Below the pieces are notes generated by a model that was not told where the DNA came from, ran no database searches, and saw only the letters and a program-made list of their open reading frames with translations. Made by a program: the position numbers and the translations under genes. Below, in pieces: positions 1,210 to 27,815 of a DNA stretch of 33,473 nucleotides; position 1 is the first letter of the stretch, and each line of letters starts with the position of its first letter. The DNA is from a virus, in IMG/VR virus record IMGVR_UViG_3300035698_013606, positions 1 to 33,473 of that record; one strand, given 5' to 3'.

Positions 1210-3570
1210 TTATAAATCAGTTTCTTTAACTTCTTTCATATTTTTTTTAGGTGAATTAAGAATATTGACATTATTCTCATATCTTTCTTTGGGTGAAACA
1301 TATACTTTATCAAAATATCCTTCCCTCAATACTGGAGGCAATTTCCCAGTAAATGCCTCAGCAGTAGTCCCAACCGGATTAGTAGAATTTGTAGGATCTC
1401 CAACTTTCCAATTGGTAAAATTATCAGTAACATTCTGTTCAATACCTCTATTGGCATAGTAATTAATTTTTGCCCTAACCTGATCTGAATCTCTAGCATG
1501 ACCTAAGTGATAACAAAGTTTTTCCATCAAATTCAAAAATTTATATTTAGGTGGTTTGACATCATTACCATCCTTATCTCTATAGAAATTGAATCCAGTT
1601 TTAACGCCATCTACTGGATGTCTAAAATCTTCTCTCCATCTCCACATACGCGCTTGTGGCCTAAACCATTGACCACCTATAGCAACCGTCTTTAAACTTT
1701 TCCAAAATTCGTGTTTCAAAATCTGAATGCAAGTTAATCTTTCATCCAATATAAAATGTCTTTTCAAATATTCTACATCCGATTCTGTAAAAATTTCATC
1801 GCTATCTACTTTCAAATATAAATCTGTATCAATCCTTTCTGCAATGGCATTCTGCATCTCTGCTTTATTTTTCCAATATCTACCATCAGGCGGGGGTACT
1901 ACTTCAATTTTACCATATGGATCAAATTCATCAATACATTTTGCTATTTCTTCAAATGTACCATCTATACTATCATAATCAGTTTGTTTAGGCTTTCCTC
2001 TATCTACAAATACCATATCAGAATTAACTCTAGCATAATCCTCAACCGCTCCTTCTACTATTACAATCTTATCTACGAAATCGTAAATAGATCTTAAAGC
2101 TAATCTAATGGTGTCACGTCCGTTCAACACTATAATTCCCGCCGTAATAGATAAATCCTTACCGTTATAGAATACCCTTTTAAGAGCCTTCCTCATGGTC
2201 GTAGGAAGATATGGGATAGTAGAAGCTTGATTAAAAAATCCACTATAACCATATTCCCCCCTTTTAATCCGTAATTCATCATCTCTCAAATACATTTCCA
2301 TTATTCTTGCTACATCATTCATATCTTCATATTTAGCATAATCCAAATAATCTTTATATTCCCTTCTCAAGACTGGAATGTCATAAGTGATACAAGGCTT
2401 TTTGCAATACAATGCCTCTGCTGGCGGTATTCCAGCTCCTTCAAAAACTGTAGGGAATATCATCATCTTAGATCGTTTAATTATGTAGAATTTTTCCAAA
2501 TCATTTACATTGGCATAAAATCTTATATTAACATCAACTGCCGTTGCATTAGTCATCATTTTTTCTCTTAACTTGGCACTATGAGAACCAACATAATTAA
2601 TAGTTGGCCGTATATCTTCCGGTATCTTTGCCACTGCAAATATTATCCCATCAGGATTTTTAAATTCAACGTGCCTGCCAACAAACACTACTTCATTTTC
2701 CTCTTTATTGCAAGCAACTCTATCAGCAGCCCAAGTATTAATGCAAGGAACTACGATTTCATATTTTCCTTTAAATGTCTCAAGCCATTCAATTGCTGAA
2801 TCACAAGACTCCTTGGAAATACTCATCAACTTTTGAGCAAAATTAAGAATACCTTGTTTATATCTGCTCCAATACTCTTCGGTGGAATCTGCTCCACCCC
2901 TATATTTTCTTACAAAATTAGGAGACTCAAATAAACATGCATATAAAGGAATTTTCCATTTATCCGCATATAAAAATCCCATATTGGCTAAAGGACTTTC
3001 AATCACATAATCAAATGGATTTTCTTCAGCAGTATAATATCCTTTAGTTTTATGAAAGAATTTTTCAACATACCATTCAACTCTATTTTCAACATCTAAA
3101 AATTTAAAATCATCTAGGAAGAATGCTCTTTTGTCTGACAATATAGTTACTTTGTGGCCCATTTGTGCAAGCATATATGCAAGAAAAACCAAATAATATC
3201 TACCGCCACTATAATGCCCAATGTTATTCATATATAAAGCAATATGCAGCATTCGTCTTTTTGCGGAAACTAATTTATAAATACTTGATATATCTGAACT
3301 CTGACTTAACAATTTCGGTGCTTTTACCAAATTCAAAGCCTTCTCAATATCCATAATACTAATGTCCATCAAATCACTATTTGATATAGTAATAATAACT
3401 TCATTTTCATCTTTAACTAATTTTGATTTACCACCTAATTGCACTATACATTCATCTAATCTTGATAATGATATATCGCTGGCCTTATCAACAGGAACAT
3501 TTTTTCTTCTTTCAATTTGGCGTTGCGTCATATGACGCCTTCTTTTTCTCAAATCTTCTTTAGGTCGCAT
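1210..3570 (-). CDS. Tandem two-domain glycosyltransferase (GT4-like + GT2-like)
   Basis: A 786-residue protein. After a basic, poorly conserved N-terminus (1-105), residues about 107-435 look like a GT-B fold, GT4-family transferase: GGRYYLVFLAYMLAQMGH early, VFVGRHVEFKNPDG at the second Rossmann unit, and an E-x7-E motif (E377/E385 in FEGAGIPPAEAL). Residues about 475-710 look like a GT-A, GT2-family transferase: TAGIIVLNGRDTIRLALRS, then a DSDE metal-binding motif at about 589-592. It should transfer two sugars, or one sugar twice, from nucleotide-sugar donors; the acceptor is unknown. It lies among virion genes, directly after the capsid gene and its terminator, apart from the main glycan island. 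That position suggests glycosylation of a virion protein (inference). The ATG at 3570 has only a weak AGGA site. Confidence 0.88.
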   Translation of the reverse strand: MRPKEDLRKRRRHMTQRQIERRKNVPVDKASDISLSRLDECIVQLGGKSKLVKDENEVIITISNSDLMDISIMDIEKALNLVKAPKLLSQSSDISSIYKLVSAKRRMLHIALYMNNIGHYSGGRYYLVFLAYMLAQMGHKVTILSDKRAFFLDDFKFLDVENRVEWYVEKFFHKTKGYYTAEENPFDYVIESPLANMGFLYADKWKIPLYACLFESPNFVRKYRGGADSTEEYWSRYKQGILNFAQKLMSISKESCDSAIEWLETFKGKYEIVVPCINTWAADRVACNKEENEVVFVGRHVEFKNPDGIIFAVAKIPEDIRPTINYVGSHSAKLREKMMTNATAVDVNIRFYANVNDLEKFYIIKRSKMMIFPTVFEGAGIPPAEALYCKKPCITYDIPVLRREYKDYLDYAKYEDMNDVARIMEMYLRDDELRIKRGEYGYSGFFNQASTIPYLPTTMRKALKRVFYNGKDLSITAGIIVLNGRDTIRLALRSIYDFVDKIVIVEGAVEDYARVNSDMVFVDRGKPKQTDYDSIDGTFEEIAKCIDEFDPYGKIEVVPPPDGRYWKNKAEMQNAIAERIDTDLYLKVDSDEIFTESDVEYLKRHFILDERLTCIQILKHEFWKSLKTVAIGGQWFRPQARMWRWREDFRHPVDGVKTGFNFYRDKDGNDVKPPKYKFLNLMEKLCYHLGHARDSDQVRAKINYYANRGIEQNVTDNFTNWKVGDPTNSTNPVGTTAEAFTGKLPPVLREGYFDKVYVSPKERYENNVNILNSPKKNMKEVKETDL

Positions 3571-3617: not shown

Positions 3618-3649
3618 AAAAATAAGGAGAGCCTTTCAGCCCTCCTTAT
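3618..3649 (-). terminator. Rho-independent terminator after the capsid gene
   Basis: An 11-bp stem (3639-3649 with 3622-3632) encloses a 6-base loop. Read leftward, ATAAGGAGGGC pairs with GCTCTCCTTAT and is followed by a T run ending at 3618. The only imperfect pair is G·U in the minus-strand RNA; in the plus-strand RNA it would be an A/C mismatch. The hairpin is therefore tuned to leftward transcripts. It starts 30 bases after the capsid stop codon and should end the head-gene transcript. Confidence 0.85.
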
Positions 3650-3678: not shown

Positions 3679-4701
3679 TTAAGAACCGGAGCCAGTTGTG
3701 AGTCCAGTAAAAACAAGGATTGCATTATCATATTCAACTTCAAGAGCAACACGCTCTGAAATTGCCCAGATAACACTATCATCCTTAATAATACTATCCT
3801 CAGCAAACTTAATCTTCCTACGATCCCCAAGCAAAACATTATCAACATGAGTAGACACTCCATAACCTTCCGGAATGTAATCTGTCTGAATAATTTTCCA
3901 CTTGTTATACAGAAAGCCAATTTCTCCAGTAAGGATAGTTGCTTTCGGGCCATATTTATCAACAGTTCTCAAATCATCATCCGCCAACATCTGATTAGCT
4001 GAATAAGGATTCAAGAAAGTTATCAATTTATTGGACTGACGGCCAAACCTACCAAGCTTGTAGATTCCAAGCCGGAAAACATCATTAGTGCAGTTTCCAT
4101 TAACAGCCTGATTAATACCGCTTTCAATGCCAATAGTAAGGATACCATCAAAAGCAAGCCGAGCATCCTTATTAAACCAAGTACCACTATAACTATTAGT
4201 ACCATTAGCTTCAACAGTAGTAGTAGGAGTGTGATCTACGTCACCAGTAAGAAATGCCCGCTCTTCCCATTCTCCCAAACCTTGACCAAAAATGTTCCTG
4301 ATCATTGTCCGCATATCAAGAACACCATCTTCAAAGGTTTCCTCGGAAATCTCCAACCAAGCAAACAGCTTACGAGCAACTAGCTCAATCGAGCCAGCCG
4401 TCCAAGTTGTTTCCGTCCCAGTTGTAGCTTCCTGTGACTGATAGTAAACCTTCGTACCAGTCAGAAGTTTAGGAACAGTACGCACTCTACTTTTCATGTT
4501 AAATGAACGAAACACCTTCCTAAAATTATTATACTCTTTCACAATATCAATAAAAGTAGCAGCAAGCGGATCAGGCAGAAAAGGTTGAGCAATTGTACCA
4601 CTCGACCCCCTGCCAAAAGGAGTATTACCAATAGTTGTAGCATTAGCAGTTGACTTAAACAATTGCTTCAACTGCTTCAAAGATTTAATAGTAAGAGGCA
4701 T
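3679..4701 (-). CDS. Major capsid protein (HK97 fold)
   Basis: A 340-residue protein with the layout of an HK97-fold capsid subunit. There is a short basic N-arm with a glycine-rich stretch (about 25-36). The middle (about 105-155) has the usual acidic helix region ending in a GEWEERAFLTGD-type sequence, comparable to the 'afl.GdG' region of HK97 and related capsids. A beta-rich C-terminal half ends in a strand before a Ser/Gly tail. Length and position (after portal, protease and scaffold-like gene) are typical. GC content is visibly higher and codon use richer than in neighbouring genes, as expected for a highly expressed gene. The ATG at 4701 has GGAG about 8 bases upstream. A strong terminator follows. 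Assignment is by family pattern and synteny. Confidence 0.87.
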   Translation of the reverse strand: MPLTIKSLKQLKQLFKSTANATTIGNTPFGRGSSGTIAQPFLPDPLAATFIDIVKEYNNFRKVFRSFNMKSRVRTVPKLLTGTKVYYQSQEATTGTETTWTAGSIELVARKLFAWLEISEETFEDGVLDMRTMIRNIFGQGLGEWEERAFLTGDVDHTPTTTVEANGTNSYSGTWFNKDARLAFDGILTIGIESGINQAVNGNCTNDVFRLGIYKLGRFGRQSNKLITFLNPYSANQMLADDDLRTVDKYGPKATILTGEIGFLYNKWKIIQTDYIPEGYGVSTHVDNVLLGDRRKIKFAEDSIIKDDSVIWAISERVALEVEYDNAILVFTGLTTGSGS

Positions 4702-4771: not shown

Positions 4772-5461
4772 TTAGTCATTATCTTTCAATTTTTCAATAA
4801 CACCTTGAACAGTATTGCCAATAAAATTATCAAGCTGCTGCCGTTTAACACGCTCAGCAGTACTCAACTCTTTCCCAAGAGAATCATGGGTTTCAACTGT
4901 TTCCAGTTTTACTCCACTTTTATTTTTGCCTTTATTCTTTGCAACAGGTTCCTCAATGGTTTCATCAGTTGTATCTTCAGTTGTTTCCTCAGTAGTAGTT
5001 TCAGTAGGTTCATCATCCAATTCCGATTCATCAAGACCTTCATCTTTGGCAATCTGACGCACCAGTTTATCAATTGCATCATCCGCTCCATTACCTTTGG
5101 GCTTGGATTTATCTTTAACAATATTCTTCAAAGATTCAGTTACAACATCCTTAACAATTTTCTTAATGTCGCCAACAGTAGCTGAATCCTCATCCTTCTT
5201 TTCTTTTACAGTTCCTTCTTTCTTATCCAATTTATCAAGAATAGGCTGCATCTGCTCCTTGACAATTTCTTCAACCGTCTTAGGTGTTTCAATATGAACA
5301 TTATCCTTAATAAAATTCACAATACCATCAATTTTATTAGAAATAGACTTTACAGCCTTATCAGTAGCGGCAGTAACATTTTCATCAGAATCGCCTTTAA
5401 GTGATTTCTCAATATAAGAATTGAGAGCACCAAGAACTTCATCCTTACCAAGTTTCGGCAT
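4772..5461 (-). CDS. Scaffold-like acidic, coiled-coil protein
   Basis: A 229-residue, highly charged protein without hydrophobic core patterns. It is helical and amphipathic throughout, has a low-complexity acidic Thr/Glu segment at about 150-170, and a basic helical C-terminus. That composition, between the prohead protease and the capsid gene, matches capsid scaffolding proteins, whose C-terminal basic helix usually binds the capsid subunit. The ATG at 5461 has GAAGAGG six bases upstream and lies one base after the stop codon of the protease gene, so the two are likely translationally coupled. A TTG at 5476 is in frame but lies upstream of that ribosome site. A head-fibre or other structural role cannot be excluded. 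Confidence 0.6.
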   Translation of the reverse strand: MPKLGKDEVLGALNSYIEKSLKGDSDENVTAATDKAVKSISNKIDGIVNFIKDNVHIETPKTVEEIVKEQMQPILDKLDKKEGTVKEKKDEDSATVGDIKKIVKDVVTESLKNIVKDKSKPKGNGADDAIDKLVRQIAKDEGLDESELDDEPTETTTEETTEDTTDETIEEPVAKNKGKNKSGVKLETVETHDSLGKELSTAERVKRQQLDNFIGNTVQGVIEKLKDND

Positions 5462-5462
5462 G

Positions 5463-6557
5463 TTAAACCTCTTCAATTAAACTATTTAGAGAATCAGTAA
5501 TATTTTGTGCAATCTCAGAAACAAGACTCTTAATCATATTTTTGCGTTCATCAAGCGTACCATTCATTTTGTGAATAACATTTACACTAGACTTCAATTT
5601 TTGAAGTGAAGGCAAAATCTCATCATCAAATTTTTCCTCAACAAATTGTAAATTTTCAACGCTACTAGCCAGTTCAATATAATCATCAGCCTTATCCAAA
5701 AGACCAATGACACTGAGATGTGTTTTCAAATGTTTCAAAATAAAATCAGAAGCATTCTCCTTGATTGCTTTCTGATATGAAGAAAATAAAGCATTCTTAT
5801 GTAAATAAAGTATATTGTCCTTAACATAATGATGAGCGTACTCTTTAAAAATTTCACCTTTTGAATAATTAACCGGGAAAGCCTGATCTGGCGAAGATTC
5901 AATATCCAAATCTTTAGGCTCATCTTTCAATATATTGGAATTATGTTTAAAAGTAGAATCTGAATCTGTTACAATTCTTTCACGAGTATTCTTACTTTTA
6001 TTCTCTTTAATGGATTTCAAAATCCCTTCCATAAATGTATCTTTATTAGCAGGTTGATCTGTTATAAGAATATGAGACAAAACGCCATCATCTAAAACAT
6101 AAGTTAATTTTCCCTTTTTATCAGTTTCCACAAAAGTCTTAATTACTTTCCCATAAATAGAAAAACCAAAAATAATTCCATCATCCATCTTTTGAACTAA
6201 CTTCTCAACATTTACATTATTTTCAGGTTTCTGTAATTTACCTTCAATGTCAAGTTTTTCTTTACTACCACCTTTATTAGTGATAACTCCAACAATATCA
6301 TCAAGCGCTCTTGAGAAATGACCATTAACCCTTAAAGGTAAATTGATAACCTGTTTCTTCATACTTTTAATAAAATTTTCAGATACCCTCTCTTCATCCC
6401 AATCAATTGATGTAGTAGATGCAGTACCCGAAACATAAAATCTTTTACCATCATCTGTATCCTTGCTCAAAAGAAATTTGTCCTTACCGGACGCATCCTT
6501 CTGAACAATATTCAATGGCACAAAAGTCTCAAAATTCAAATCAACCTGTTCACTCAT
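5463..6557 (-). CDS. Possible internal in-frame protease start
   Basis: Residue M209 of the protease frame is an ATG at 6557 preceded on the minus strand by ATGGAGGGATT, a near-perfect Shine-Dalgarno with 4-5 bases of spacing. It is stronger than the site at the upstream TTG. A product starting here would be 364 residues: the whole protease domain plus its helical C-terminal region, close to the usual size of a prohead protease. Either two proteins share this frame (compare lambda C/Nu3, a known case of nested in-frame head genes) or the upstream 208 residues are a separate translated unit fused in frame. This is my reading of the ribosome site, not proof. Confidence 0.5.
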   Translation of the reverse strand: MSEQVDLNFETFVPLNIVQKDASGKDKFLLSKDTDDGKRFYVSGTASTTSIDWDEERVSENFIKSMKKQVINLPLRVNGHFSRALDDIVGVITNKGGSKEKLDIEGKLQKPENNVNVEKLVQKMDDGIIFGFSIYGKVIKTFVETDKKGKLTYVLDDGVLSHILITDQPANKDTFMEGILKSIKENKSKNTRERIVTDSDSTFKHNSNILKDEPKDLDIESSPDQAFPVNYSKGEIFKEYAHHYVKDNILYLHKNALFSSYQKAIKENASDFILKHLKTHLSVIGLLDKADDYIELASSVENLQFVEEKFDDEILPSLQKLKSSVNVIHKMNGTLDERKNMIKSLVSEIAQNITDSLNSLIEEV

Positions 6558-7181
6558 AATCCCTCCATCCATTCCACATTTATTCAATAAGTTTTTAACT
6601 CTTTCTTGAGCTATTCTATTCTTATAATGCCATACACCATTCTTTAAACAACAATTCTTTTTAACATATTTCCAAGTAATATCCTTATCAAAATTATTAT
6701 TAATATAACTTAAAATAAATGCTCTCCCTATACTCAATGCAAACTTTTTATTATCATCAAAAATCCATTTATAAAAACCATTTTCACTTTTTCTATAATA
6801 ACCGGCATCAGGTAATACATCATCTATTATAGCCCCAACAATATTTTCCTCCGAGTAACCAATACTATAATAATATAACACTGATTTAATCATCAATAAA
6901 GAAACATTTAAATCATCTTGTTGCCACATAGAATTAAGAAATGTGTACAACTTTCTTTTTCTACTTTTTTCAGCATCCTTATCAAATTGCATTGCTAAAT
7001 AATAACAATTAGCAATATCTCTAAAATTAACAACAGAGAATTTTTTAAATTTATTATCAGTAAACTTCAAATCATATAATGAAAAAATAACCCCATTCCC
7101 AACAGTTTTGAAATGGTACTTGCCGCAATTGACTCCATCCATGCTAGGATAGATTACCTGCTCTTCAATACGTTGCTCCAA
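5463..7181 (-). CDS. Prohead protease with unusual N-terminal extension
   Basis: A 572-residue frame. Residues about 245-385 look like a phage prohead serine protease of the HK97/S78 or XkdF type. There is a beta-rich start (YVSGTASTTSIDWDEERVS), a likely catalytic histidine H288 in VNGHFSRALD, a likely catalytic serine S341 in IIFGFSIYGKV, and SHILITDQPANKDTF, equivalent to the 'SPANP' region. It should cleave scaffold and capsid proteins in the prohead. Residues 1-208 are unrelated to the protease and unrecognised. Residues 400-572 are charged and helical, scaffold-like. The TTG at 7181 has AAGG six bases upstream but overlaps the portal gene by 28 bases; an ATG at 7142 is the alternative. 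A strong internal start at 6557 is listed separately. Confidence 0.8.
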   Translation of the reverse strand: MEQRIEEQVIYPSMDGVNCGKYHFKTVGNGVIFSLYDLKFTDNKFKKFSVVNFRDIANCYYLAMQFDKDAEKSRKRKLYTFLNSMWQQDDLNVSLLMIKSVLYYYSIGYSEENIVGAIIDDVLPDAGYYRKSENGFYKWIFDDNKKFALSIGRAFILSYINNNFDKDITWKYVKKNCCLKNGVWHYKNRIAQERVKNLLNKCGMDGGIMSEQVDLNFETFVPLNIVQKDASGKDKFLLSKDTDDGKRFYVSGTASTTSIDWDEERVSENFIKSMKKQVINLPLRVNGHFSRALDDIVGVITNKGGSKEKLDIEGKLQKPENNVNVEKLVQKMDDGIIFGFSIYGKVIKTFVETDKKGKLTYVLDDGVLSHILITDQPANKDTFMEGILKSIKENKSKNTRERIVTDSDSTFKHNSNILKDEPKDLDIESSPDQAFPVNYSKGEIFKEYAHHYVKDNILYLHKNALFSSYQKAIKENASDFILKHLKTHLSVIGLLDKADDYIELASSVENLQFVEEKFDDEILPSLQKLKSSVNVIHKMNGTLDERKNMIKSLVSEIAQNITDSLNSLIEEV

Positions 7182-8785
7182 CTTAAACCTTGTCCTTGAA
7201 TAGATCCCATTAATGAATCAATTGAATATCCTGAAAAATCAACAAATGTAGTTTTCTTCTCTCTCTCTTTAATCAATTTTGCAACAACATCTTTTACAAT
7301 AGTAGGATCTACTTTTTCCAAACCAGTTGGAACTTCATAATTTTCAACCATAACATTCGTACTATCTTTTTTCTTGACTTTCTTTTTCTTATCATCTACT
7401 CCATCAACATTGTTGTCTATACCATCATTCATAGCATTCTTTCTATTAGCCTCTATTCTTGACATCTGATATTCTCTCAAAATACTCAAAGGCGAAAAAT
7501 TAAGAGGAACGAATGGTTCATTGCCCCAATCAACAGGCGGCATTTGTAACTTATCCCTAACCTGATTAATTGTAATAACTCCAGACCTCAAGAATATCTC
7601 CCAAATTTTAGCTTGTTTATCTTCATCATCTATATCCAAATTAGAAGATGTCAAATATATATTATCAAAATTCAGATTAGCATCTCCCCAAACAAGAACC
7701 GAATTCATCATATTACAAAATAACTTCACCAAAGGTATAATTGTATTTTTCTTATACTGTTCGGATTGTACCTCTGAATTCAATTTCCCCGTAGTATCAG
7801 TCAATATACCTAACACCATAGGCTGCATGCCATATACTGCCATTATCCTTGACAAAAGAAGTAACTGCCAATCACTAAATTCCATATCCTTATTGGATAC
7901 AGTCAACTCCTGTATTTTCACTTCACCTTTTTGTGTACCCATAAATAATGGCGAATGAGGTTTTCCTTTATGCTCACTCTGATACCATTTCTTAGCTCTT
8001 TCTAATGCCTGCTTGCCCGGCCCAAATCCAAGATTATTAAACAAGAATGCAATATTAGGTCTAGCATTATTCTCAAAAAATTTCAAATTATAATTCATGG
8101 CTTCTATATCGCCTAGAATAGACTCTGCAACTGACTCGATAGGAGAAAAGCCATTTGCATATCCTGCTCTCACATTCTTTATGAAATTTATAAATTCATA
8201 TTTATCCCAATACGATAAAATTTCATTATTCCTAATCTGTAAAAATGTCTTTTTCTCATTCAATACGCCATTCCTCTTAGCATTCACATATAACTCAGCC
8301 CCAGTTACTGATGCCCTCAATTCATATGCAATCTTTTTTTTGTTAATATAATTTCTTCCCTTACCTATTTGAATGCCACCTTCATCATAAATTAATACAT
8401 CCTTTATAACTTTCTTTTTAATTGAACTAAAACTCTCAAAATCACTATTTGGTATATAAAGCATATTAGACGCAGTTTCCATATTTCGTTTCACATCATC
8501 TGGGTAATCAGTTGATTTAGTATCTCTTTTGGTCGCAAGTGGTATAAAAAATGATTCAGTCTGAGCAAATCTCTCACTTGATAAATCAACAATAGCTCTT
8601 ATCCATGCATTTACTCTATATGCATCTGTCATAAATGATCTATCAACTCTATATTCTGATTGTGACTCAACTATAGAGTTACTCAAATCGCTACTACCCA
8701 TAAAATCACTTATCCTTAATCTACCACGCACACTCCTATCTTTACTTACGGTATTACCAGATAACATCTTAGATGTAGCGAACAT
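7154..8785 (-). CDS. Portal protein (HK97 type)
   Basis: A 543-residue protein resembling phage portals of the HK97/PF04860 group. Typical features are an early AYRVNAWIRAIVDLSSERFA helix, LSYWDKYEFINFIKNV followed by FSPIES, a central NNLGFGPGKQALERAKKWY segment, and FSDWQLLLLSRIMAVYGM followed by a loop that includes NSEVQSEQYKK. Residues about 460-490 are lysine-rich linker. The portal forms the dodecameric DNA entry ring at one capsid vertex and docks the terminase. It lies between the terminase and protease genes as expected. ATG at 8785; the gene starts only a few bases after the membrane-protein gene and overlaps the protease start if the TTG at 7181 is used. Confidence 0.9.
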   Translation of the reverse strand: MFATSKMLSGNTVSKDRSVRGRLRISDFMGSSDLSNSIVESQSEYRVDRSFMTDAYRVNAWIRAIVDLSSERFAQTESFFIPLATKRDTKSTDYPDDVKRNMETASNMLYIPNSDFESFSSIKKKVIKDVLIYDEGGIQIGKGRNYINKKKIAYELRASVTGAELYVNAKRNGVLNEKKTFLQIRNNEILSYWDKYEFINFIKNVRAGYANGFSPIESVAESILGDIEAMNYNLKFFENNARPNIAFLFNNLGFGPGKQALERAKKWYQSEHKGKPHSPLFMGTQKGEVKIQELTVSNKDMEFSDWQLLLLSRIMAVYGMQPMVLGILTDTTGKLNSEVQSEQYKKNTIIPLVKLFCNMMNSVLVWGDANLNFDNIYLTSSNLDIDDEDKQAKIWEIFLRSGVITINQVRDKLQMPPVDWGNEPFVPLNFSPLSILREYQMSRIEANRKNAMNDGIDNNVDGVDDKKKKVKKKDSTNVMVENYEVPTGLEKVDPTIVKDVVAKLIKEREKKTTFVDFSGYSIDSLMGSIQGQGLSWSNVLKSR

Positions 8786-8791: not shown

Positions 8792-9325
8792 TTATCCTTC
8801 CTCATCAGATTCTGTTGATATTTCCTTACCTTTATGGATAATCCCTTGGAATGGAATATGATTTTGGGCTATCAAGCAAATTATCGCAACAGATATTGAA
8901 CAAACCATTTTAAATACCAATATCCATATATTATCCTCATCATTAGAAGCAATTGCAATATATATAATATACACTATGCTCACGATGGTAAAAAGGATTA
9001 AAGAGTCCACGAAAATTGTGTAACATAAATTTTCAAATGTTTGTATTATAGAAACGTAAGTTTCAGGATTAACTAAAGCACTGATAAATCTCCAGATAGC
9101 TGTGAAAAATTTTGATTGCTTATCTTTTTTCTTTTCCCTATCAAGATTTTTCTTTTCCCTATCAAGTTTTTTAGCTAATTCATTCTTTCTGCATTCTTTG
9201 TCTATTTTATTCTTAGCAATCATATCAATAATATTTTCTTCCTCAATAATCTTACCAGGAATACCATCATCTGTTTCAGAATCTAAAACATCATTCAACC
9301 CATCAACCAATACATCTTCTGACAT
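8792..9325 (-). CDS. Two-helix membrane protein between terminase and portal
   Basis: A 177-residue protein. The N-terminal half is acidic then lysine-rich and helical, and contains a tandem LDREKKN/LDREKKK repeat at about 54-67 that reflects an exact 20-base DNA repeat. Two hydrophobic helices follow (about 105-128 and 132-152), then a short polar tail. No family is recognised. A membrane protein in this slot, inside the terminase-portal gene pair, is uncommon in model phages; it might tether head assembly to the membrane (inference only). The ATG at 9325 lies 9 bases after the terminase stop and has a GGGGAAAAC-type ribosome site. Confidence 0.65.
   Translation of the reverse strand: MSEDVLVDGLNDVLDSETDDGIPGKIIEEENIIDMIAKNKIDKECRKNELAKKLDREKKNLDREKKKDKQSKFFTAIWRFISALVNPETYVSIIQTFENLCYTIFVDSLILFTIVSIVYIIYIAIASNDEDNIWILVFKMVCSISVAIICLIAQNHIPFQGIIHKGKEISTESDEEG
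9126..9166. repeat. Exact 20-base tandem repeat inside a gene
   Basis: Positions 9126-9145 and 9147-9166 carry the same 20 bases (T5-CTTTTCCCTATCAAG), giving a 21-base period, so seven codons are duplicated in the membrane-protein gene without a frameshift. This looks like a recent slippage or duplication event in the charged helix. Confidence 0.85.
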
Positions 9326-9334: not shown

Positions 9335-11257
9335 TTATCCAAAAAATACATTTCCACCATCTGAAATTTCATTAGACAAATTAAATGTTACTCCGGCTGT
9401 GCAATCTACCACATCTTTACTCCCTTTTTCATTACCTTCTTCTTCAAATCTATCTGTTGATAATTCAGGATGATCAATCTTATTATTGACTTCAATCAAT
9501 TCTTTAGTTTCTCTTTTCCAAACAAAATGATCATATATTTTAAATAATCCCATATGTACAAAATCTTTTTGAGTATGATGCGGGGCTGGAGTTTTATCCA
9601 CTGACAATAATTCCGCCTCAATTCCTTTTCGATTAAATTCTTGTATAGTTTCAACGCTCTGCCATCCATCTATAGTAACTTTAAATAATTCAAATCCCCT
9701 CTTTTCTTGTAATCCAATAGCAAAATCTCGGATGTCTTTCAAATTTACCTCTTTATCTTGTCTCTTGCAAATTATTTGGACTACTAAATCCATCACAATC
9801 CCCATTCTTAGTTGTCCTTGCAATCCTGACAAATCCTGATTAAAATTCTGCCTGTAATATCCTATGATAAAATCATCCAAATATAATCTCATTTCTTGAG
9901 TGTGTCCTAAAGCAATTGCAGCGGCATCATGTCCTTTCCATACTTGACCTTTTGCCAAGTCAAGATGCATAGTGTAGAAAAAATCATTAGAACCTTTAAA
10001 CCAATCTTCCAACAAATTATCAATTCCTGCGTAAATATTGTTTACGATTATTTTTTCACCTTTAAATGGATTAATTGTATATTTTTTTTCTACATCAATT
10101 GCTTTATTAATAAAATAAATATTGCTATATAAACTATCAGTCTCTACCTTTGGATCTTTACACTCATACATCATAGCAGCTTTTTCAGGATCTCTAGCAT
10201 ATTGAGAAGCAAACTGCGATCTCAATCTTGACTCTGGAGTATCAGTTCTTACATCATAAACAGAATATACTCTGACAAATTTCTTCTTATCTTTTTTGTT
10301 TTTCTTAACCAATATTGACATAGGACAATTCTTGCCATACTTATATGACATAACCACTAATTTTCCATATCCATTTGTAGAAGTAGAACGTGCAGTTGCG
10401 GATAGTGAATCATACTGACCAACCATTCGCTCATCTGTACCAAAAACTTTTTCCAATCTCATAGCTCCTAATTCATCCATAAATGCTAAAAGAATGTTCA
10501 AACCTTCCGCAGTAAATCTTTCAGATGTTAGAGAATGACAAGTTATTCCCCTTCCAAATTCAATATTCTTTATCTTTATGTCGCCATCTTTGTCCCTTAA
10601 ATCGCTATACCGGAATGTAGATCTACCTACATCCCACCAAAAATTCTTAGATGCAAACCAATTCTTATTTGTATTTGGGTCTTTTGTTAATTTCATAAAA
10701 CTAGACAAATATTTAAAAAATACATTTTTCGCTTGTTCAGAAGTAGATGCTACATTTACAATATCTATACTACTTCCGACCCCCATCCCTATAAATTCTT
10801 GAGGAAAAAATAAACAACATAATTTGTAACATTGATACAATGCAGACTTTGCCAATGTAGAATCTTTACCAGATCTTTTCCCCCACATAGCATTTACTTC
10901 TTCATACTTCATATCTGTAAATTCAAATGGACTCTTGCCGCAAATAATATCTACAGTTTCTTGTTGTAAAGGAGTAAATGCTTCGCCTAACATTTTTTTA
11001 GAAAAATAGGAAGATGTTACAGGTTCGTGTCTCCATATATCGTTATACGGTCTAAAGCCAACAGGATACAGTTCATTTACTTCTTCTTTTGGTTCATCTT
11101 TATTTTTTTCCTCATCAGTCTTACATAAGTCCTCTAATCCATCCATAAACTCATTTACAAAAAAAGTACCCATATTATCTATGCCGGCATCTTTAGCATC
11201 TTTGATGCCTTTTATGGGCCGAAAGTTCCCAACTTGATCTTTTTTGTAAATAGCCAT
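9335..11257 (-). CDS. terL: Terminase large subunit (packaging ATPase/nuclease)
   Basis: A 640-residue protein. The ATPase half has a Walker A-like motif GKRSGKDS (126-133) and a Walker B motif LLAFMDE (256-262) with catalytic E262. The C-terminal nuclease half has the acidic positions of the RNase H-like fold: D433 in MHLDLAKG, D530 in VTIDGWQS, and D615/D618 in KDVVDCTAG. It cuts concatemeric DNA and pumps it into the prohead through the portal. The first 90 residues are a variable, charged extension. The ATG at 11257 shares a base with the upstream stop codon (TAATG), so it is probably translationally coupled. No small terminase subunit is recognisable by sequence; one of the two small upstream genes could fill that role. 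Confidence 0.92.
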   Translation of the reverse strand: MAIYKKDQVGNFRPIKGIKDAKDAGIDNMGTFFVNEFMDGLEDLCKTDEEKNKDEPKEEVNELYPVGFRPYNDIWRHEPVTSSYFSKKMLGEAFTPLQQETVDIICGKSPFEFTDMKYEEVNAMWGKRSGKDSTLAKSALYQCYKLCCLFFPQEFIGMGVGSSIDIVNVASTSEQAKNVFFKYLSSFMKLTKDPNTNKNWFASKNFWWDVGRSTFRYSDLRDKDGDIKIKNIEFGRGITCHSLTSERFTAEGLNILLAFMDELGAMRLEKVFGTDERMVGQYDSLSATARSTSTNGYGKLVVMSYKYGKNCPMSILVKKNKKDKKKFVRVYSVYDVRTDTPESRLRSQFASQYARDPEKAAMMYECKDPKVETDSLYSNIYFINKAIDVEKKYTINPFKGEKIIVNNIYAGIDNLLEDWFKGSNDFFYTMHLDLAKGQVWKGHDAAAIALGHTQEMRLYLDDFIIGYYRQNFNQDLSGLQGQLRMGIVMDLVVQIICKRQDKEVNLKDIRDFAIGLQEKRGFELFKVTIDGWQSVETIQEFNRKGIEAELLSVDKTPAPHHTQKDFVHMGLFKIYDHFVWKRETKELIEVNNKIDHPELSTDRFEEEGNEKGSKDVVDCTAGVTFNLSNEISDGGNVFFG

Positions 11258-13517: not shown

Positions 13518-14471
13518 ATGTTCATTCAGTTTAATTGTTTAAGAACTGGATTGGGTAATGGCGGCGGTAGCAATACTATTTTACGGTGTCAACAGACATT
13601 AAAAGAATTGGGACATAGATGTGAGATTGTTGCTACTTTAGATAGATTTACTTGGTTCAAACATGATACTCCAAAACAGCATTTATCCGCTGATGCTGAT
13701 TGGATAATTGCAACTGGAGTTCATTCTTTTGATAGTACATTACATTCAAGAACTAATCATAAAGCATGGTATATTCGCGGCCATGAAACTTGGATAAAAG
13801 GATTTGATGAAAATGTATTAGTAAAAATGTATAAAAATTCTCATGTCCATATGGTATCAAATTCTACTTGGATGAAAAAATTTATTGAAAATCAAGGTGG
13901 AACTTGTAATGTAATATTTCAAGGAATAGATTGCAAAAGTTGGATTAATAATACCATAAAAAGAGATGCACAAGATAAAGTTACTATAGGTTGTCTATAT
14001 GGGGCTAAAGCAAGTAAACATTGGGATCATTTTTTAACATTAAAATCACTATTGGGTGATAAATATAATTATATGGCATATGGATTGAAGGCCCCAAAAG
14101 AATATAAAGGAATCAATTTTTTTACTCAACCCGGTCATAATCTTTTGAATAATATATATTTGTCATGTCATATATGGTTCGCTCCAACATCTCAAGAAGG
14201 ATTACATAATGTTCCTATGGAAGCAGCTTTATGCGGCTGTAGGATAGTATGTTCAGATGATGAAAGAAATGGAATGGGAGATTATGCAAGTGAACATACG
14301 GCCTATATATATTCAGATAGCAGAGTAGCTGATGCTGCAGATATTATAAAGGATGTGAACTTTCAAGATAACAAAGTAGAAAATATGAAAAATAGAATAA
14401 TCAATCATATAGGCGATAGAAAACATAATATGAAAAAGATGATAAACTTACTACATGAATCATCCCATTAA
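13518..14471 (+). CDS. Glycosyltransferase, GT-B fold (GT4-like)
   Basis: A 317-residue retaining-type transferase. The N-terminal unit has NGGGSNTILRCQQTLKELGH (14-33), the glycine loop and first helix usual in GT4 enzymes. A WYIRGHETW segment (84-92) lies in the acceptor domain. The C-terminal donor domain has the E-x7-E motif (E227/E235 in SQEGLHNVPMEAALCG), followed by RIVCSDDERNG. It should transfer a sugar from a nucleotide donor to an unknown acceptor in the cytoplasm. It is the first gene of the glycan island, begins two bases after the zinc-finger gene, and overlaps the next gene by 17 bases. Confidence 0.88.
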   Translation: MFIQFNCLRTGLGNGGGSNTILRCQQTLKELGHRCEIVATLDRFTWFKHDTPKQHLSADADWIIATGVHSFDSTLHSRTNHKAWYIRGHETWIKGFDENVLVKMYKNSHVHMVSNSTWMKKFIENQGGTCNVIFQGIDCKSWINNTIKRDAQDKVTIGCLYGAKASKHWDHFLTLKSLLGDKYNYMAYGLKAPKEYKGINFFTQPGHNLLNNIYLSCHIWFAPTSQEGLHNVPMEAALCGCRIVCSDDERNGMGDYASEHTAYIYSDSRVADAADIIKDVNFQDNKVENMKNRIINHIGDRKHNMKKMINLLHESSH

Positions 14472-15156
14472 TATAGATATTACAATGACGGCAACGTTGA
14501 GACCCAAAGTTCTCAGAAAGACATTGAGAAGTTTTGAAAAATATGCATTTGGAGATACATCTAAATATAAATGTAGATTGGTAATAAATATAGATCCAAT
14601 TGGAGAGTTATTGGTTTCGCAATATAAGATAAAGAACATTGCCAAAAATCATTTTCCTAATGTATTATGTAATATTTCAGATACACCGTCATTTCCAAAG
14701 GCGTTAATATGGTGCTGGAGTCACATAAAATCTAATTATGTATTTCATCTTGAAGATGATTGGAGATTAAATAGATTCGTTCCAATTGATGCATTAATAT
14801 ATGCTTTAGAATCAAATAAAAAATTGGCATCAATTAGACTTAGTAAATCACATATTACAAAAGATATTGATAGGAAATTGACATTTAATCCTTCTATGTT
14901 TAAAAAGACTTTTCTTGTTAAATTTGCAAGATTATTAGATTCAAACAAAAATCCTGAAAAACAAGTTAATTCTAATTTTCCTAAATTGTATAATTTTTGT
15001 AACCAATGGGAATATGAAGTATTCGGAAAAGTTGGCGATAGAAGATTAGTTACAGATATTGGTAGAAAATGGATGCAAAGACAGAAGTTTATAAAATTAA
15101 ATGAAAATAATGGACAAAATTCATCTTCCTTTACTACGTGGGAGAAAAAATGTTAA
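14455..15156 (+). CDS. Glycosyltransferase, GT-A fold (paralogue of 18121-18825)
   Basis: A 233-residue GT2-like protein. It starts with a strand plus TATLRPKVLRKTLRSFEK, the usual nucleotide-binding start, and has a metal-binding motif in FHLEDDW (LEDD at 99-102). Residues 10-50 and the C-terminus (TDIGRKWM, then TTWEKK) match the protein at 18121-18825, so the two are paralogues. No ribosome site is obvious, and the ATG overlaps the preceding gene by 17 bases, suggesting coupled translation. The paralogue's N-terminus aligns near residue 7, which supports this start over the ATG at 14485. Donor and acceptor are unknown. Confidence 0.78.
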   Translation: MNHPINIDITMTATLRPKVLRKTLRSFEKYAFGDTSKYKCRLVINIDPIGELLVSQYKIKNIAKNHFPNVLCNISDTPSFPKALIWCWSHIKSNYVFHLEDDWRLNRFVPIDALIYALESNKKLASIRLSKSHITKDIDRKLTFNPSMFKKTFLVKFARLLDSNKNPEKQVNSNFPKLYNFCNQWEYEVFGKVGDRRLVTDIGRKWMQRQKFIKLNENNGQNSSSFTTWEKKC

Positions 15157-16073
15157 TCATATTATATGGAAAATATAGCCCAAAAGAATATAGCTCAAAA
15201 CATCAAATGTTAATAGATGAGAAAAGCGTTTGTGGTTATAGAGATTATGCTGAACAATTTGGGCACATTATATATATGACTCCGCAAAAAGTTAGAAAAC
15301 CATGGGAACATTGCTTCTCTGAAAAAGGTATTTTGGATTTTATTAGTAAATATCCTGATGCTATAGTATGGTCAGTTAAACATGATCCTGCCAAAGATGA
15401 AATTCTCAAGAAGATTAAAAACAAAAAAGTGTATTATTCATGTTGTGCTAAAAATCCATATAATTCATATTGTAATATCAGTCTAGTAGATACAAAAGAA
15501 AGAATACAACAAAATGCAGTATTATATGTAAAAGGAAAAGACCCTAAATTTTGGGCATCATCTTATGACACAAGAAAAGAATTTGATTATTTATTAATAG
15601 GTAAAAGATGTGATAAAAATGAGGTTTACTTTTTACATGAATTAGATAAAGTTGGAAAAACTAGAAAAGTATTATGGATAGGTGGCGAACAACATAAGTC
15701 TAAAATAAATGTTAATAATGTAGAAGTAGAATATACTCCATTTCTAAATAAAGAATCTGTAAGAGATAATATATTAAGAGCAAGAATTGGCATTTTGTTT
15801 ACTGAGTTGGAGGTAGAGGGATTCCCTCAATCATATTTGGAAATGACTATGTGTGGATTGCCGGTAGTGTATAATCTAAAAGCACCGTACAATAAATACT
15901 ATTTTTTGGATCCAAGTTGTTCAGTTCGTACTGATAAAAAACATCTTATTGAAGCTGCGGAATTTTTAAAAAGAAAATATGATAAATCCATGATATATTA
16001 CACAAGATTGTCAGCTGCTAAAAATTATAGTCTTGATGTATCATATGAAAGGATTAAACAATGCATAAAGTAA
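15150..16073 (+). CDS. Glycosyltransferase, GT-B fold (GT4-like)
   Basis: A 307-residue protein. The C-terminal donor-binding half is recognisable: FDYLLIGKRCDKNE at the inter-domain start, VLWIGGEQ, then the E-x7-E motif (E223/E231 in ELEVEGFPQSYLEM) followed by CGLPVVYN. The N-terminal half (VCGYRDYAEQFGH) is divergent. The start is the ATG at 15150, with GGGAG five bases upstream inside the end of the preceding gene; a GTG at 15138 is too early for that site. It overlaps the next gene by 13 bases. It is probably one step in the same assembly line as its neighbours. Confidence 0.8.
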   Translation: MLIILYGKYSPKEYSSKHQMLIDEKSVCGYRDYAEQFGHIIYMTPQKVRKPWEHCFSEKGILDFISKYPDAIVWSVKHDPAKDEILKKIKNKKVYYSCCAKNPYNSYCNISLVDTKERIQQNAVLYVKGKDPKFWASSYDTRKEFDYLLIGKRCDKNEVYFLHELDKVGKTRKVLWIGGEQHKSKINVNNVEVEYTPFLNKESVRDNILRARIGILFTELEVEGFPQSYLEMTMCGLPVVYNLKAPYNKYYFLDPSCSVRTDKKHLIEAAEFLKRKYDKSMIYYTRLSAAKNYSLDVSYERIKQCIK

Positions 16074-16873
16074 TAACGATGTGTGATAATGGATATTTCC
16101 AATATGGAAAATTATTCATACAAACCCGTAAAAAAATAGATGCAGACTTTATTCTATATGGGCCTAATTTAGATTCAGGCCAAATACATATATTGACAAA
16201 AAATAATATAGAATATAAGAAAATGGATAAACGTGATTTCAATCTTAAAATGCAATATATGAAATTTAAGTTATTATTTGATAATATAACTGGTGCCACG
16301 GAAGATAATATAACATTTGTAGATTTTGATACATTATTCTTAAACGATTGGAATAATTATATATCTGGAAAGCAATTTGATTTAGGAATAACATATAACA
16401 ATTTATTCATAAAACAAAAGGTGTATAGGTCATTTGCTAATGGTGGTGTAATATTTGTTAAAGATACTTTTGGATCAGTGAATATGTGCGCTTATGCCAG
16501 ACATACAATGAATATTGGGAATAGTAAATTTTTGCCAGAATATGATTCTATTTATAAAACCCTTGAAGATCATAATAGACCTGAACATAAAAGATACTCA
16601 AGAACTTATTTAAGATGGTGGTGTGATCAGGTTTTTCTATCTGCCATAATATTACAATATTTGAATACGCACTCTAAATTGATTATGGATGATTGTGCGT
16701 ATAAATTTCACAAACATAATATACAGTTTTTTGATTGTAGCAAATTTAATAATCTTAATGTTACTTCTGAAAATATCACAATTAGAATAATGAAACATAA
16801 TCCGTATATTTGTCATCTAAAAAATATAGGAAGGTCTGGTAGTTATGAAAAAATCATTAAAAGATTATTATAG
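16061..16873 (+). CDS. Glycosyltransferase, GT-A fold (GT8/nucleotide-diphosphosugar transferase-like)
   Basis: A 270-residue protein. It has a DxD metal motif in FVDFDTLFL (D88, D90), FANGGVIFVK (125-134), the usual 'NsGv' strand of GT8-like enzymes, and a WWCDQVFLS segment (186-194) equivalent to their 'DQ' motif, with CHLKN near the C-terminus. This points to a metal-dependent transferase using a UDP- or GDP-type donor. The ATG at 16061 has AAAGG eight bases upstream. It overlaps both neighbours, the downstream methyltransferase by 29 bases. Confidence 0.78.
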   Translation: MHKVITMCDNGYFQYGKLFIQTRKKIDADFILYGPNLDSGQIHILTKNNIEYKKMDKRDFNLKMQYMKFKLLFDNITGATEDNITFVDFDTLFLNDWNNYISGKQFDLGITYNNLFIKQKVYRSFANGGVIFVKDTFGSVNMCAYARHTMNIGNSKFLPEYDSIYKTLEDHNRPEHKRYSRTYLRWWCDQVFLSAIILQYLNTHSKLIMDDCAYKFHKHNIQFFDCSKFNNLNVTSENITIRIMKHNPYICHLKNIGRSGSYEKIIKRLL

Positions 16874-17516
16874 TAAATGGAACAATTATGTCATTAATAA
16901 AATACGTTTTATCAATTCAACTAAAAGTAATATGCACAGAGATTATTTTGTGCAATATGTTAAAAAACACAAAGATATAAAATCAATTGTTGAAGTTGGA
17001 GCAGGAGAATTAATTGAAGCACAAAAGATATTAAAGAATAATCCTGATATATTTTATATGGTTGCAGATATTTCAGATACATTTTTAAAGTATGCCAATG
17101 AATTGAAAATTAGTGCTATACAATGCGATATGATTAAATTAGCTAAATACATACGATCTAATTTTTTTGATTTGTTATATGTATCAAGCGTATTAGAACA
17201 TTCTCCGAATATAACACAAACTATTGACGCTATGAGCAAAATTAGTAAACAATATTATATAAGTATGTTTAAATGGAGAGTCAAAGGTGGTTCTTTAACT
17301 TCTCATTTTAATGATAAAAGAAATTATTATACATCTATATTTAGTATCCAAAATATAATGAATTTATTGCAGTTGCATAGTAAAGTTAAATATGCTTTTA
17401 TGTTAAAAGGCGATGGCAATACCATACCATATGGGGATTATATCCAAATGTATAAAGATAACAATGAAACACAAAGAGATGGCAGTAGAATGATATTCAT
17501 AGGTAAATGGGATTGA
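16845..17516 (+). CDS. SAM-dependent methyltransferase, class I
   Basis: A 223-residue Rossmann-fold methyltransferase. Motif I is IVEVGAGELIEA (48-59), an acidic residue follows the second strand (VADIS, D75), and the post-strand-4 segment is FDLLYVSSVLEHS (108-120), the usual type-11/type-23 pattern. The C-terminal part has an aromatic, Asp/Asn-rich lid. Given its neighbours, a sugar O-, N- or C-methyl transfer is the simplest guess; no substrate residues are diagnostic. The start overlaps the upstream transferase by 29 bases. The downstream gene begins after an AAAGGAG site that overlaps this gene's stop. Confidence 0.78.
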   Translation: MKKSLKDYYSKWNNYVINKIRFINSTKSNMHRDYFVQYVKKHKDIKSIVEVGAGELIEAQKILKNNPDIFYMVADISDTFLKYANELKISAIQCDMIKLAKYIRSNFFDLLYVSSVLEHSPNITQTIDAMSKISKQYYISMFKWRVKGGSLTSHFNDKRNYYTSIFSIQNIMNLLQLHSKVKYAFMLKGDGNTIPYGDYIQMYKDNNETQRDGSRMIFIGKWD

Positions 17517-17527
17517 AAGGAGATGTA

Positions 17528-18124
17528 ATGACTGAGTTATGTAAACTTGCAAATAAGTATCATACTGACAAGTATTGCAAACATCATTATACCCAAGTAT
17601 ATGATACATATTTTAATTCATTAAGATATGCCAAAATGAAGGTACTAGAGATTGGGGTAGCAGATTGCGCATCAATAAATATGTGGTTAGATTACTTCCC
17701 TAATTCCTATATTTTTGGGATGGATTTAATCATACCTGATGATTTATCTAAAAATTCAAAATTTGTTTTTATAAGAGGTAATCAATATAATCCTCGTGAT
17801 TTGGATAATATAATTAAAAGTGGCAAAAAATTTGACATTATAATTGATGATGGTTCTCATGTTTCAGAACATCAGCAATACAGTTTAAGTTATCTTTGGA
17901 AATACTTGAAACCTGGTGGTTTTTATGTTATAGAAGATTTGAATTGCAAAAGAACTACGCATATAGAAACTACTGAAATAGTATTTAAGGAATACATTAA
18001 AACAAAATCATTTAGAAGTAGAATAATTGCATCTGATGAATCAAAAAAAATATCTGATGAAATCTATATGTGTAAATTCCATTGTAACAATAAAATCATC
18101 TTTATTAGAAAGAGGGTGAAATGA
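17528..18124 (+). CDS. SAM-dependent methyltransferase (MycE/CmcI-like)
   Basis: A 198-residue methyltransferase. It begins LANKYHTDKY, then HHYTQVYDTYF, a signature of the sugar O-methyltransferases related to macrolide enzymes such as MycE. Motif I is VLEIGVADCASINMW (39-53), the ribose-binding acid is D66 (GMDL), and a metal/substrate-binding IIDDGSH motif is at 105-111 before LKPGGFYVIEDL. The family usually needs a divalent metal held by these acids. The ATG at 17528 has AAAGGAG six bases upstream. The stop overlaps the next start as ATGA. It probably methylates a sugar hydroxyl. Confidence 0.86.
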   Translation: MTELCKLANKYHTDKYCKHHYTQVYDTYFNSLRYAKMKVLEIGVADCASINMWLDYFPNSYIFGMDLIIPDDLSKNSKFVFIRGNQYNPRDLDNIIKSGKKFDIIIDDGSHVSEHQQYSLSYLWKYLKPGGFYVIEDLNCKRTTHIETTEIVFKEYIKTKSFRSRIIASDESKKISDEIYMCKFHCNNKIIFIRKRVK

Positions 18125-18825
18125 TACCATTTGATTTCACTACTACTGCTACAAACAGAATTGATATTGTAGAACACTGTTATGCTTCATTCCATAAAAA
18201 TTTGGAATGGGTTGATTGGAACAATTCTACACTATTAATCAATATCGATCCAGTTCCGCTTGGTATTAATGCAAGCAATTTTATGGATATGTGCTCAAAA
18301 TATTTTGGCCAAGTAATTATTAACATACCTGATAAACCTAATTATACACAAGCATATAAGTGGGTTTATAGGAAAGCGAATTCAAAATTGATATTTAATT
18401 TAGAAGATGATTTTATACTTACAAGAAAAGTTGATGTCAGGGCATTAGTAGAATATTTCAATCAAAATAAAGAATTGTATTCAGTATCATTAAGAGTATA
18501 TCCTTGGCATTACCAAAGCATTCCTACTTCTCCGCAGATTCTACATAAAAGATTTTATAAAATAGTTGGAGAAGGTTTGGATCCGAAAATCAATCCAGAG
18601 GTACAATTGAGAGGATCTAAATGGGGATTAAAGATGCCGACATTTAGAGAAGGATATGGACCTAAAATTTCAGAGAAAGGTAAACTTGTAGTCTATCCAG
18701 AACAAGGGGGAGATCATAATTGCATTGTTAAAGATATTGGCAGAGAATGGTCTAAATCACGCGGTCTTTTGAGAACCAAAGAAAAGAAAGATTTTGTTAC
18801 ATGGGAAAGGAAAGATAATGGCTGA
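18121..18825 (+). CDS. Glycosyltransferase, GT-A fold (paralogue of 14455-15156)
   Basis: A 234-residue GT2-like protein with FNLEDDFIL (LEDD at 94-97) as the metal site. It shares with 14455-15156 the opening TTTATNRID, the LLINIDPVP strand and a C-terminal KDIGREW then FVTWERK. Divergence is enough that the two probably have different acceptors or donors. It starts as an ATGA overlap with the methyltransferase stop, with GAGGG upstream. The C-terminus overlaps the next gene, whose ribosome site is inside it. Confidence 0.78.
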   Translation: MIPFDFTTTATNRIDIVEHCYASFHKNLEWVDWNNSTLLINIDPVPLGINASNFMDMCSKYFGQVIINIPDKPNYTQAYKWVYRKANSKLIFNLEDDFILTRKVDVRALVEYFNQNKELYSVSLRVYPWHYQSIPTSPQILHKRFYKIVGEGLDPKINPEVQLRGSKWGLKMPTFREGYGPKISEKGKLVVYPEQGGDHNCIVKDIGREWSKSRGLLRTKEKKDFVTWERKDNG

Positions 18826-19672
18826 CATTGACATTATAACATATGTTCATAAGACAGAAGACTATGCTAATTTGATGAGAAGATCTTGTGAGATATTTGC
18901 TAGTAAAGAAAATACATTTCATTGGAAATGCATAAAATCAAATATTGATCAAAAGCCTATTAAAGACTGGGAAACTATTAATGTATCTAATAGCGAGGAA
19001 TACGGCCTAAGAGGATCTACATGCCATGCAATAGCCTTAAACAAAGCCTTAACATACGCTAAGAGCGATTATATAATAGTAGCGGATGCAGATATTGCTA
19101 TTTTATATCCTGAATGGGATAAACAAGTCATACACATACTTCATGATATAGGAATACAATTTTATGGATTTGAACCACCTTGTGAATCAAGGAGAGGAAA
19201 TCAAAGTTTTCCTTGTGTATTTTTTATGGCATTTAAAAGAAAAATACTTGATGATCTTCAATTAGACTTTAAACCTGATGTAGATGAAAATGAGAAATGC
19301 AAAAGGTATCAGATTGATACCCCTGAGAAATCACATATATTTAATAAACATATAGGCGATAGTGTAAAATGCGATACTGGATGGAAAATACCTATAATTG
19401 CCAAGAAATATAGTTCTGCCGTTATTCCATATATGGGCCAAAGGATTACAAGTAATATTAGTTATACTAGAATATTGCCATATAAAAATAAAGAACAAGA
19501 AAGAATATGTATGCAAAATCCAACTCATATGGCAGAATGGCATTTAAAGAATAAATTGTTTGGGACTCATAAACAAGCTGCAAGAGTTCATCCTTTAAAT
19601 AAAGGTACTGGTAAAATTTGGAAAGATAGAATTGATGTATATACTCAAAAAGAATTTGGAGTGATTTTATGA
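18818..19672 (+). CDS. Glycosyltransferase-like protein, GT-A fold
   Basis: A 284-residue protein starting with a beta strand and a DxD motif in YIIVADADIAIL (D90, D92), followed by a Cys/Gly-rich middle (about 118-135) and a C-terminal histidine-containing tail (MAEWHLKN). The motif and order of strands suit GT2 or a related nucleotide-sugar transferase. The ATG at 18818 has AAGGA six bases upstream; an in-frame upstream start at 18794 lies before this site. The stop overlaps the following ATG (ATGA). Confidence 0.68.
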   Translation: MADIDIITYVHKTEDYANLMRRSCEIFASKENTFHWKCIKSNIDQKPIKDWETINVSNSEEYGLRGSTCHAIALNKALTYAKSDYIIVADADIAILYPEWDKQVIHILHDIGIQFYGFEPPCESRRGNQSFPCVFFMAFKRKILDDLQLDFKPDVDENEKCKRYQIDTPEKSHIFNKHIGDSVKCDTGWKIPIIAKKYSSAVIPYMGQRITSNISYTRILPYKNKEQERICMQNPTHMAEWHLKNKLFGTHKQAARVHPLNKGTGKIWKDRIDVYTQKEFGVIL

Positions 19673-20274
19673 GAACTTTTAAAATCAAATCAAAGTTATA
19701 TGATAAATCGTTTGATGTTCCTGACGAAGTAGAATTTGATAAAGATGCTCACGCATTAGTAATATACATGATAGCAAAAGGATTATCTGATGCTAAAATG
19801 TTAAAAAATTATTTAGAGATAGGTATATCAAGAGGGGCTACATTTAATCTTGTTGCGCCATTAGTTTCCAAAACTGCTTATGCAGTTGATAAAGATCCTC
19901 ATTGTTATAGATTCATAGAGGCAAATGAAAATTTATCATGGCATAGATTAACTAGCACTAATTTCTTTAAATTAAATCCAGGTGTAAATTTTGATTTAAT
20001 ATTTATTGATGCAGAACACACTCATAGTAAAAGTCTAAGAGATTTTATAGTATCTGCAGATAGACTTAATGACAATGGCCTAATATTGATGCATGATACA
20101 TATCCTCAATCAGAAAAATATATTAGCTTAAAACATTCTGGAAATGTATTCAAAGCTATTATATATTTGAAAAAGAATTTTTATCATAAATATGAAATTG
20201 TTACACTTCCATTCTATAGTGGCATAACTATTATACGCAAAGCTCATAAACATATAATGTGGAAAAATACATAA
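19669..20274 (+). CDS. SAM-dependent methyltransferase (Methyltransf_24 type)
   Basis: A 201-residue protein. Motif I is YLEIGISRGATFN (48-60), the acidic residue after strand two is in AVDKD (D74), and the family-typical FDLIFIDAEHTHSKSLRDF (108-126) is followed by LNDNGLILMHDTYP (133-146). IDAEHTH and HDTYP are hallmarks of the type-24 methyltransferases found in polysaccharide and antibiotic clusters. Likely a sugar or glycan methyl transfer. It ends a run of overlapping genes; 52 bases with a leader motif follow, so it may be the last gene of the first island transcript. Confidence 0.86.
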   Translation: MRTFKIKSKLYDKSFDVPDEVEFDKDAHALVIYMIAKGLSDAKMLKNYLEIGISRGATFNLVAPLVSKTAYAVDKDPHCYRFIEANENLSWHRLTSTNFFKLNPGVNFDLIFIDAEHTHSKSLRDFIVSADRLNDNGLILMHDTYPQSEKYISLKHSGNVFKAIIYLKKNFYHKYEIVTLPFYSGITIIRKAHKHIMWKNT

Positions 20275-20294
20275 TAGTATTTGCATAGAAAATA

Positions 20295-20305: not shown

Positions 20306-20326
20306 TATATCTGAAAGGAACAATAT

Positions 20327-21630: not shown

Positions 21631-21632
21631 CT

Positions 21633-27805: not shown

Positions 27806-27815
27806 AAGAAGATTT

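Follow-up and report, generated by a model that had tools for sequence, protein, structure and literature searches.

The window, which is the whole stretch of DNA analysed here and corresponds to a virus record of 33,473 bases, carries on its minus strand a run of head genes in which the major capsid gene precedes, in the direction of transcription, a gene for a two-unit glycosyltransferase (hereafter the fusion). A large island of glycan genes occupies the other strand. The features discussed below are the following:

1210-3570, minus strand: two-unit glycosyltransferase gene (the fusion), 786 aa with an ATG start, taken from the ORF list and PF00534, and located behind the capsid gene in all relatives
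3247-3570, minus strand: N-terminal region of the fusion, residues 1-108, with a basic start and a small conserved segment
2221-3246, minus strand: predicted GT4 (GT-B) unit, residues about 109-450
2416-2442, minus strand: EX7E motif, E377 to E385
1426-2163, minus strand: predicted GT2 (GT-A) unit, residues about 470-715
1795-1806, minus strand: putative DXD metal motif D589-S-D591-E592 (DSDE, residues 589-592)
3622-3649, minus strand: terminator-like hairpin between the capsid and glycosyltransferase genes, -17.1 kcal/mol, followed by a U-run
3679-4701, minus strand: major capsid protein gene, 340 aa (PF05065, 3.1e-14)
4772-5476, minus strand: scaffold-like protein, from position, composition and synteny
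5463-7181, minus strand: putative prohead protease-like protein, from synteny and a weak match to the N-terminal part of phrog_617
7154-8785, minus strand: portal protein (PF04860, 6.7e-33)
9335-11257, minus strand: probable terminase large subunit, mainly from position, with a weak match to phrog_17415 (E 0.022)
13518-31441, plus strand: glycan island, 10 kb from the fusion

The layout given in the original prediction, in which a 786-residue protein with a GT4-like and a GT2-like unit is encoded directly after the major capsid gene and its terminator and away from the main island, was recovered at each of these points. The hairpin is missing from the consensus scanner's own list, and a promoter scan was uninformative (23 sites versus 28.6 expected). 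Between the portal and terminase genes, the minus strand also encodes a small protein with strongly hydrophobic segments (8792-9325) that relatives retain with low sequence identity; head operons do not usually encode a membrane protein.

Domain analysis could have shown neither unit to be a transferase, and instead both come out as glycosyltransferases. PF00534 (Glycos_transf_1) is matched at residues 287-442 of the GT4 unit with an E-value of 5.9e-18 and 65.4 bits against a Pfam cut-off of 26.4, and a profile of the full-length fusion retrieves WlaC and TarM from the PDB for this half. The unit further contains a HYSGGR loop at residues 119-124 and an EX7E motif that sits in FEGAGIPPAE in the window protein, with Glu at both residues 377 and 385. 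From these profiles and the EX7E motif, the GT4 unit is predicted to be a glycosyltransferase.

The GT2-like half of the window's own copy has no Pfam match and was therefore tested through relatives and structure. PF00535 is matched by the C-terminal halves of four of ten homologues (best 3.2e-6), and a family profile of this half places SunS at the top of the PDB (5.6e-5). The half was modelled separately from ten sequences with AlphaFold (pLDDT 77, pTM 0.78), while a full-length model built from six sequences (pLDDT 48) was set aside. A Foldseek search with the model of the half returned SunS and ThuS first (1.4e-9) and 197 chains at E<=0.001 with GT2 enzymes at the top, and VIA-align placed WrtF (Z 16.7) before ThuS (16.0), SpsA (15.2) and TarS (14.9), with TarS, TarP and SpsA all at Z 14-15 and the top matches covering 168-173 residues at 2.7-2.8 A. 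SunS-type enzymes thus rank first by profile and Foldseek but level with other GT2 enzymes by VIA-align. The modelled C-terminal half has a clear GT-A/GT2 fold, an assignment that holds for the fold and not for a subfamily.

The predicted catalytic residues E377, E385, D589, D591 and E592 are all invariant in ten full-length homologues that extend down to 33% identity, so the observation is not one of chance. Both units are under purifying selection, with dN/dS values between L007 and L008 of 0.066 for the GT4 unit and 0.148 for the GT2 unit, of which only the direction is safe as dS lies above 1. Ahead of the two units, the N-terminus has a net charge of +8 within 30 residues and conserved R17, Q18, R21 and R22; residues 1-108 could possibly form a docking part.

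A single-sequence search of viral contigs gave no match to the fusion protein, and tblastn did not find it in 50,697 GenBank phage records at single-sequence sensitivity. Relatives were reached via the capsid protein (PF05065) and then via alignments of the fusion and the capsid. As a scan of species genomes yielded no bacterial or prophage relative of the fusion, no host is proposed. Among lineages with this capsid type whose contig extends beyond the capsid gene, the fusion lies behind that gene in 14 out of 14 (the window, L004, L005-L007, L008, L009, L012, L013/L014, L015, L019, L020, L034, L035, L037 and L052, with L005-L007 counted as one virus and L013/L014 likewise as one), and the linkage holds to about 40% capsid identity. 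The contig ends within the fusion gene in L019, L020 and L035. In most lineages the fusion is the immediate next gene after the capsid gene. The two are separated by an HNH-type gene in L005-L007, by a small gene in L012 and L020, by about 0.7 kb in L035, and by about 4 kb that holds five predicted ORFs in L037. The intervening gene of L005, L006 and L007, assigned by eye from the sequence as HNH-endonuclease-like, follows the capsid terminator. A hairpin and then a T-rich stretch are found in all 12 capsid-fusion gaps examined, with a sequence that differs in each virus. Further out, both this capsid type and the fusion are missing from the stretches read of more remote terminase relatives (25-29% identity), and G015, a capsid relative at 31% identity that was treated as the outgroup, has no fusion anywhere in its record of 104.9 kb. 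Recoding in G016 was considered and rejected, the stop inside the match being simply where the gene normally ends (TAG after residue 707).

Across nine lineages, pairwise distances of the fusion correlate with those of the capsid (r=0.93), the portal (0.91), the protease-like protein (0.95) and the terminase (0.97), the last of which served as the vertical marker, and these correlations are as strong as those of the head genes among themselves. With 32.9% GC, the fusion has the base composition of the head genes (32.5%) rather than of the island (29.1%). By synteny and shared descent, the fusion gene belongs to the head module, and it is this membership that is new here.

A virion acceptor fits with membership in the head module. 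The suggestion that the gene may start or extend a glycan on a head protein is thereby strengthened in two of its parts, the transferase nature of both units and the place of the gene among the head genes, while the acceptor itself is a proposal drawn from gene position, shared descent and precedent. With a probability of roughly 0.6, the fusion builds the inner disaccharide of a short virion glycan, most likely on the capsid or another head protein. It would act as a soluble, cytoplasmic glycosyltransferase with two active sites that is produced late together with the head proteins, and its metal-dependent GT2 (GT-A) half and its GT4 (GT-B) half would add two sugars in turn, so that the product would be the inner, constant part of the glycan. 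This core could then be elaborated or capped differently in each lineage by genes elsewhere, namely the big island in the subgroup of the window, a glycosyltransferase, a pyruvyl transferase and a methyltransferase in G016, and no more than a GT17 and methyltransferases in G014. The order of the steps, the identities of the sugars, the protein acceptor, the late timing and elaboration on the same chain are all elements that we infer. Speaking against this reading, the terminator hairpin between the capsid and fusion genes allows separate expression.

The relation between the fusion and the island is less direct than had been supposed. The island encodes GT4, GT2, GT9-like and TOD1/MUCI70-like glycosyltransferases, SAM methyltransferases, FkbM, a sulfotransferase, a CTP transferase (cytidylyltransferase), radical SAM proteins and others. 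Two of its products, a radical SAM/SPASM protein (28780-29850, plus strand) and a B12-binding radical SAM protein (26489-27805, plus strand), suggest unusual modified sugars or peptide chemistry, and for neither of them did the island HMM build yield a homologue among the relatives' proteins examined. The original prediction suggested that the fusion may supply the acceptor for the island, a link that co-occurrence supports only in part and on the whole weakens. Island families are present in four contigs, and related islands occupy the same locus in G001, G003 and G004, but these families were not found by HMM in G014, G016 or the available part of G002, all three of which keep the fusion. 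The fusion can therefore do without the island. G014 is a contig of 89.7 kb and presumably near-complete, since its gene order equals that of G001 around the full circle. Its island locus (L039:1348-3633) holds only a methyltransferase-like gene, a P-loop-like protein and a patatin-like phospholipase (PF01734, 2e-14). The corresponding locus of G002 (L021:865-2225) starts like that of G014 before the contig ends, and the P-loop-like protein at both loci is unassigned, has no Pfam match and carries a KRSGHH motif that resembles the P-loop of sulfotransferases. Elsewhere in G014, the island-family HMMs find one methyltransferase only and Pfam finds one GT17. In G016, a glycosyltransferase (PF13524, 1.1e-15), a polysaccharide pyruvyl transferase (PF04230, 1.6e-12) and a methyltransferase-like gene lie directly behind the fusion (L045:10676-14312), which places a glycan cluster inside the structural region. 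Relatives with this gene, no other glycan genes and unglycosylated virions would have counted against the original prediction; G014, with its GT17 and methyltransferases, and G016, with its three genes behind the fusion, are not fully of that kind. Across the lineages the fusion stays as a constant core, whereas the island is a variable add-on and the other glycan genes are replaceable.

Perhaps the fusion and the island serve unrelated glycans, the island acting on the host or another target and never meeting the product of the fusion. This is a possibility of some substance though doubtful overall, and it can hold alongside the main reading of the fusion. The three lineages that keep the fusion with no island families found, the opposite strand of the island and its lower GC all speak for it, while the glycan genes directly behind the fusion in G016 suggest that accessory genes do team up with it.

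A role in the infected cell, modifying a surface glycan of the host (O-antigen, capsule or wall polymer) so as to block superinfection or aid release, with the gene merely riding in the head module, appears unlikely. Such polymers are the usual target of GT4 and GT2 enzymes, and the solved relatives of both halves include enzymes of the wall or LPS type (TarM and WlaC; TarS and TarP). However, the fusion has no membrane segment (max KD19 1.29), and host-surface morons rarely show the strict linkage to a capsid gene across deep divergence that is seen here.

Also improbable, to a similar or somewhat greater degree, is an acceptor among the virion proteins other than the capsid, such as a protein of the neck, tail tube or fibre, or the small conserved proteins that the next two genes encode (770-1198 and 422-766). 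These two genes are kept together with the fusion in most relatives, and the tail tube proteins of mycobacteriophages are glycosylated (PMC12363180). The capsid gene, on the other side, is the immediate upstream neighbour in most lineages; neither fact identifies the acceptor. Glucosylation of modified DNA bases in the manner of the T4 alpha- and beta-glucosyltransferases is highly improbable, for although phage glycosyltransferases with such a role exist in T-even phages (PMC9614988), two fused units, sugar-modifying partners and a head-module position do not fit, and the thymidylate-synthase/hydroxymethylase family (PF00303) was not found in G001, G002, G003, G014 or G016, near-complete records included.

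Returning to a glycan on the capsid or another head protein, the capsid C-terminus was considered as a site. It reads ...GLTTGSGS in the window, and despite divergence it ends in S-x-S or a similar serine-rich motif (SGS, SAS, TSS, TES, TVS) in most members, which could be a site of modification. With ...LGALAS in the outgroup G015 and ...PPAS in L019 as exceptions, the C-terminal serines as acceptor are a lead only. Peptide is the direct substrate of the solved enzymes nearest to the GT2 half, so that by analogy direct initiation on a protein would be possible, while the SunS-like fold is common to GT2 enzymes of wall and polysaccharide synthesis (TarS, TarP, SpsA) and hence does not prove a protein acceptor. 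A bolder version of the main reading, offered tentatively and rather speculative as a whole, is that the SunS-like half would put the first sugar straight on a capsid residue, with the serine-rich C-terminus (...S-x-S) as candidate, and that the GT4 half would extend it without a lipid carrier. The whole tailed-phage group would then depend on the enzyme, and a constant disaccharide core decorated by the replaceable gene set of each lineage would be the phage counterpart of the core/variable capsid glycan of chloroviruses.

Virion glycosylation in phages is documented in the literature consulted for only a few mycobacteriophages, to which the present group of uncultured phages is unrelated. 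A two-unit glycosyltransferase that is as stable in the head module as the portal or terminase suggests that glycosylation of the capsid or head can be a long-standing, permanent feature of a lineage instead of an accessory. It also sets a constant core enzyme apart from variable decorating genes, and makes the idea testable on one gene whose catalytic residues are known.

Each half of the fusion has better-known relatives in other settings. The glycocin S-glycosyltransferases SunS and ThuS (SP-beta prophage, Bacillus), which profile and Foldseek searches place closest to the GT2 half among solved structures, glycosylate peptide directly (PMC6405829), but differ in their identity of about 15%, their bacteriocin cluster and their single GT unit. 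TarM and the PglH/WlaC-type GT4 enzymes are, among solved or curated proteins, those nearest to the GT4 half, and share the EX7E motif. They likewise have a single GT unit, and their substrate is wall teichoic acid or lipid-linked oligosaccharide.

The mycobacteriophage system, the functional precedent for a capsid glycan, resembles the present one in its phage-encoded glycosyltransferases, in its head-module location in cluster O and in its O-methyltransferase partners. Corndog and Firecracker have an O-methyltransferase and glycosyltransferases between the portal and protease genes (PMC4351075), a position also seen on inspection of the Firecracker gene order, and Corndog gp38 and Che8 gp110 are reported to be essential for capsid glycosylation (PMC12363180). 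However, these enzymes are separate small GT25- and GT2-type genes (Che8 gp110 is a GT25) together with a GT2-methyltransferase protein, whereas the fusion joins GT4 and GT2 in one protein after the capsid gene. No homology of the fusion to Che8 gp108, gp109 or gp110 was detected (hhalign probability under 1% each). Che8 gp108 (L137:2172-3347), annotated as a glycosyltransferase only, also has a methyltransferase domain (Methyltransf_24/TylF) and is thus a GT2-methyltransferase fusion.

The chloroviruses offer the nearest parallel in logic. Their transferases belong to a eukaryotic algal virus and to other domain families and do not lie behind a tailed-phage capsid gene. In PBCV-1, A111/114R, which is present in all sequenced chloroviruses, is assigned to the conserved core of the capsid glycan, while A064R builds the terminal part (PMC9614988). 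Both are virus-encoded multi-unit transferases, and the same split between core and variable parts is found here.
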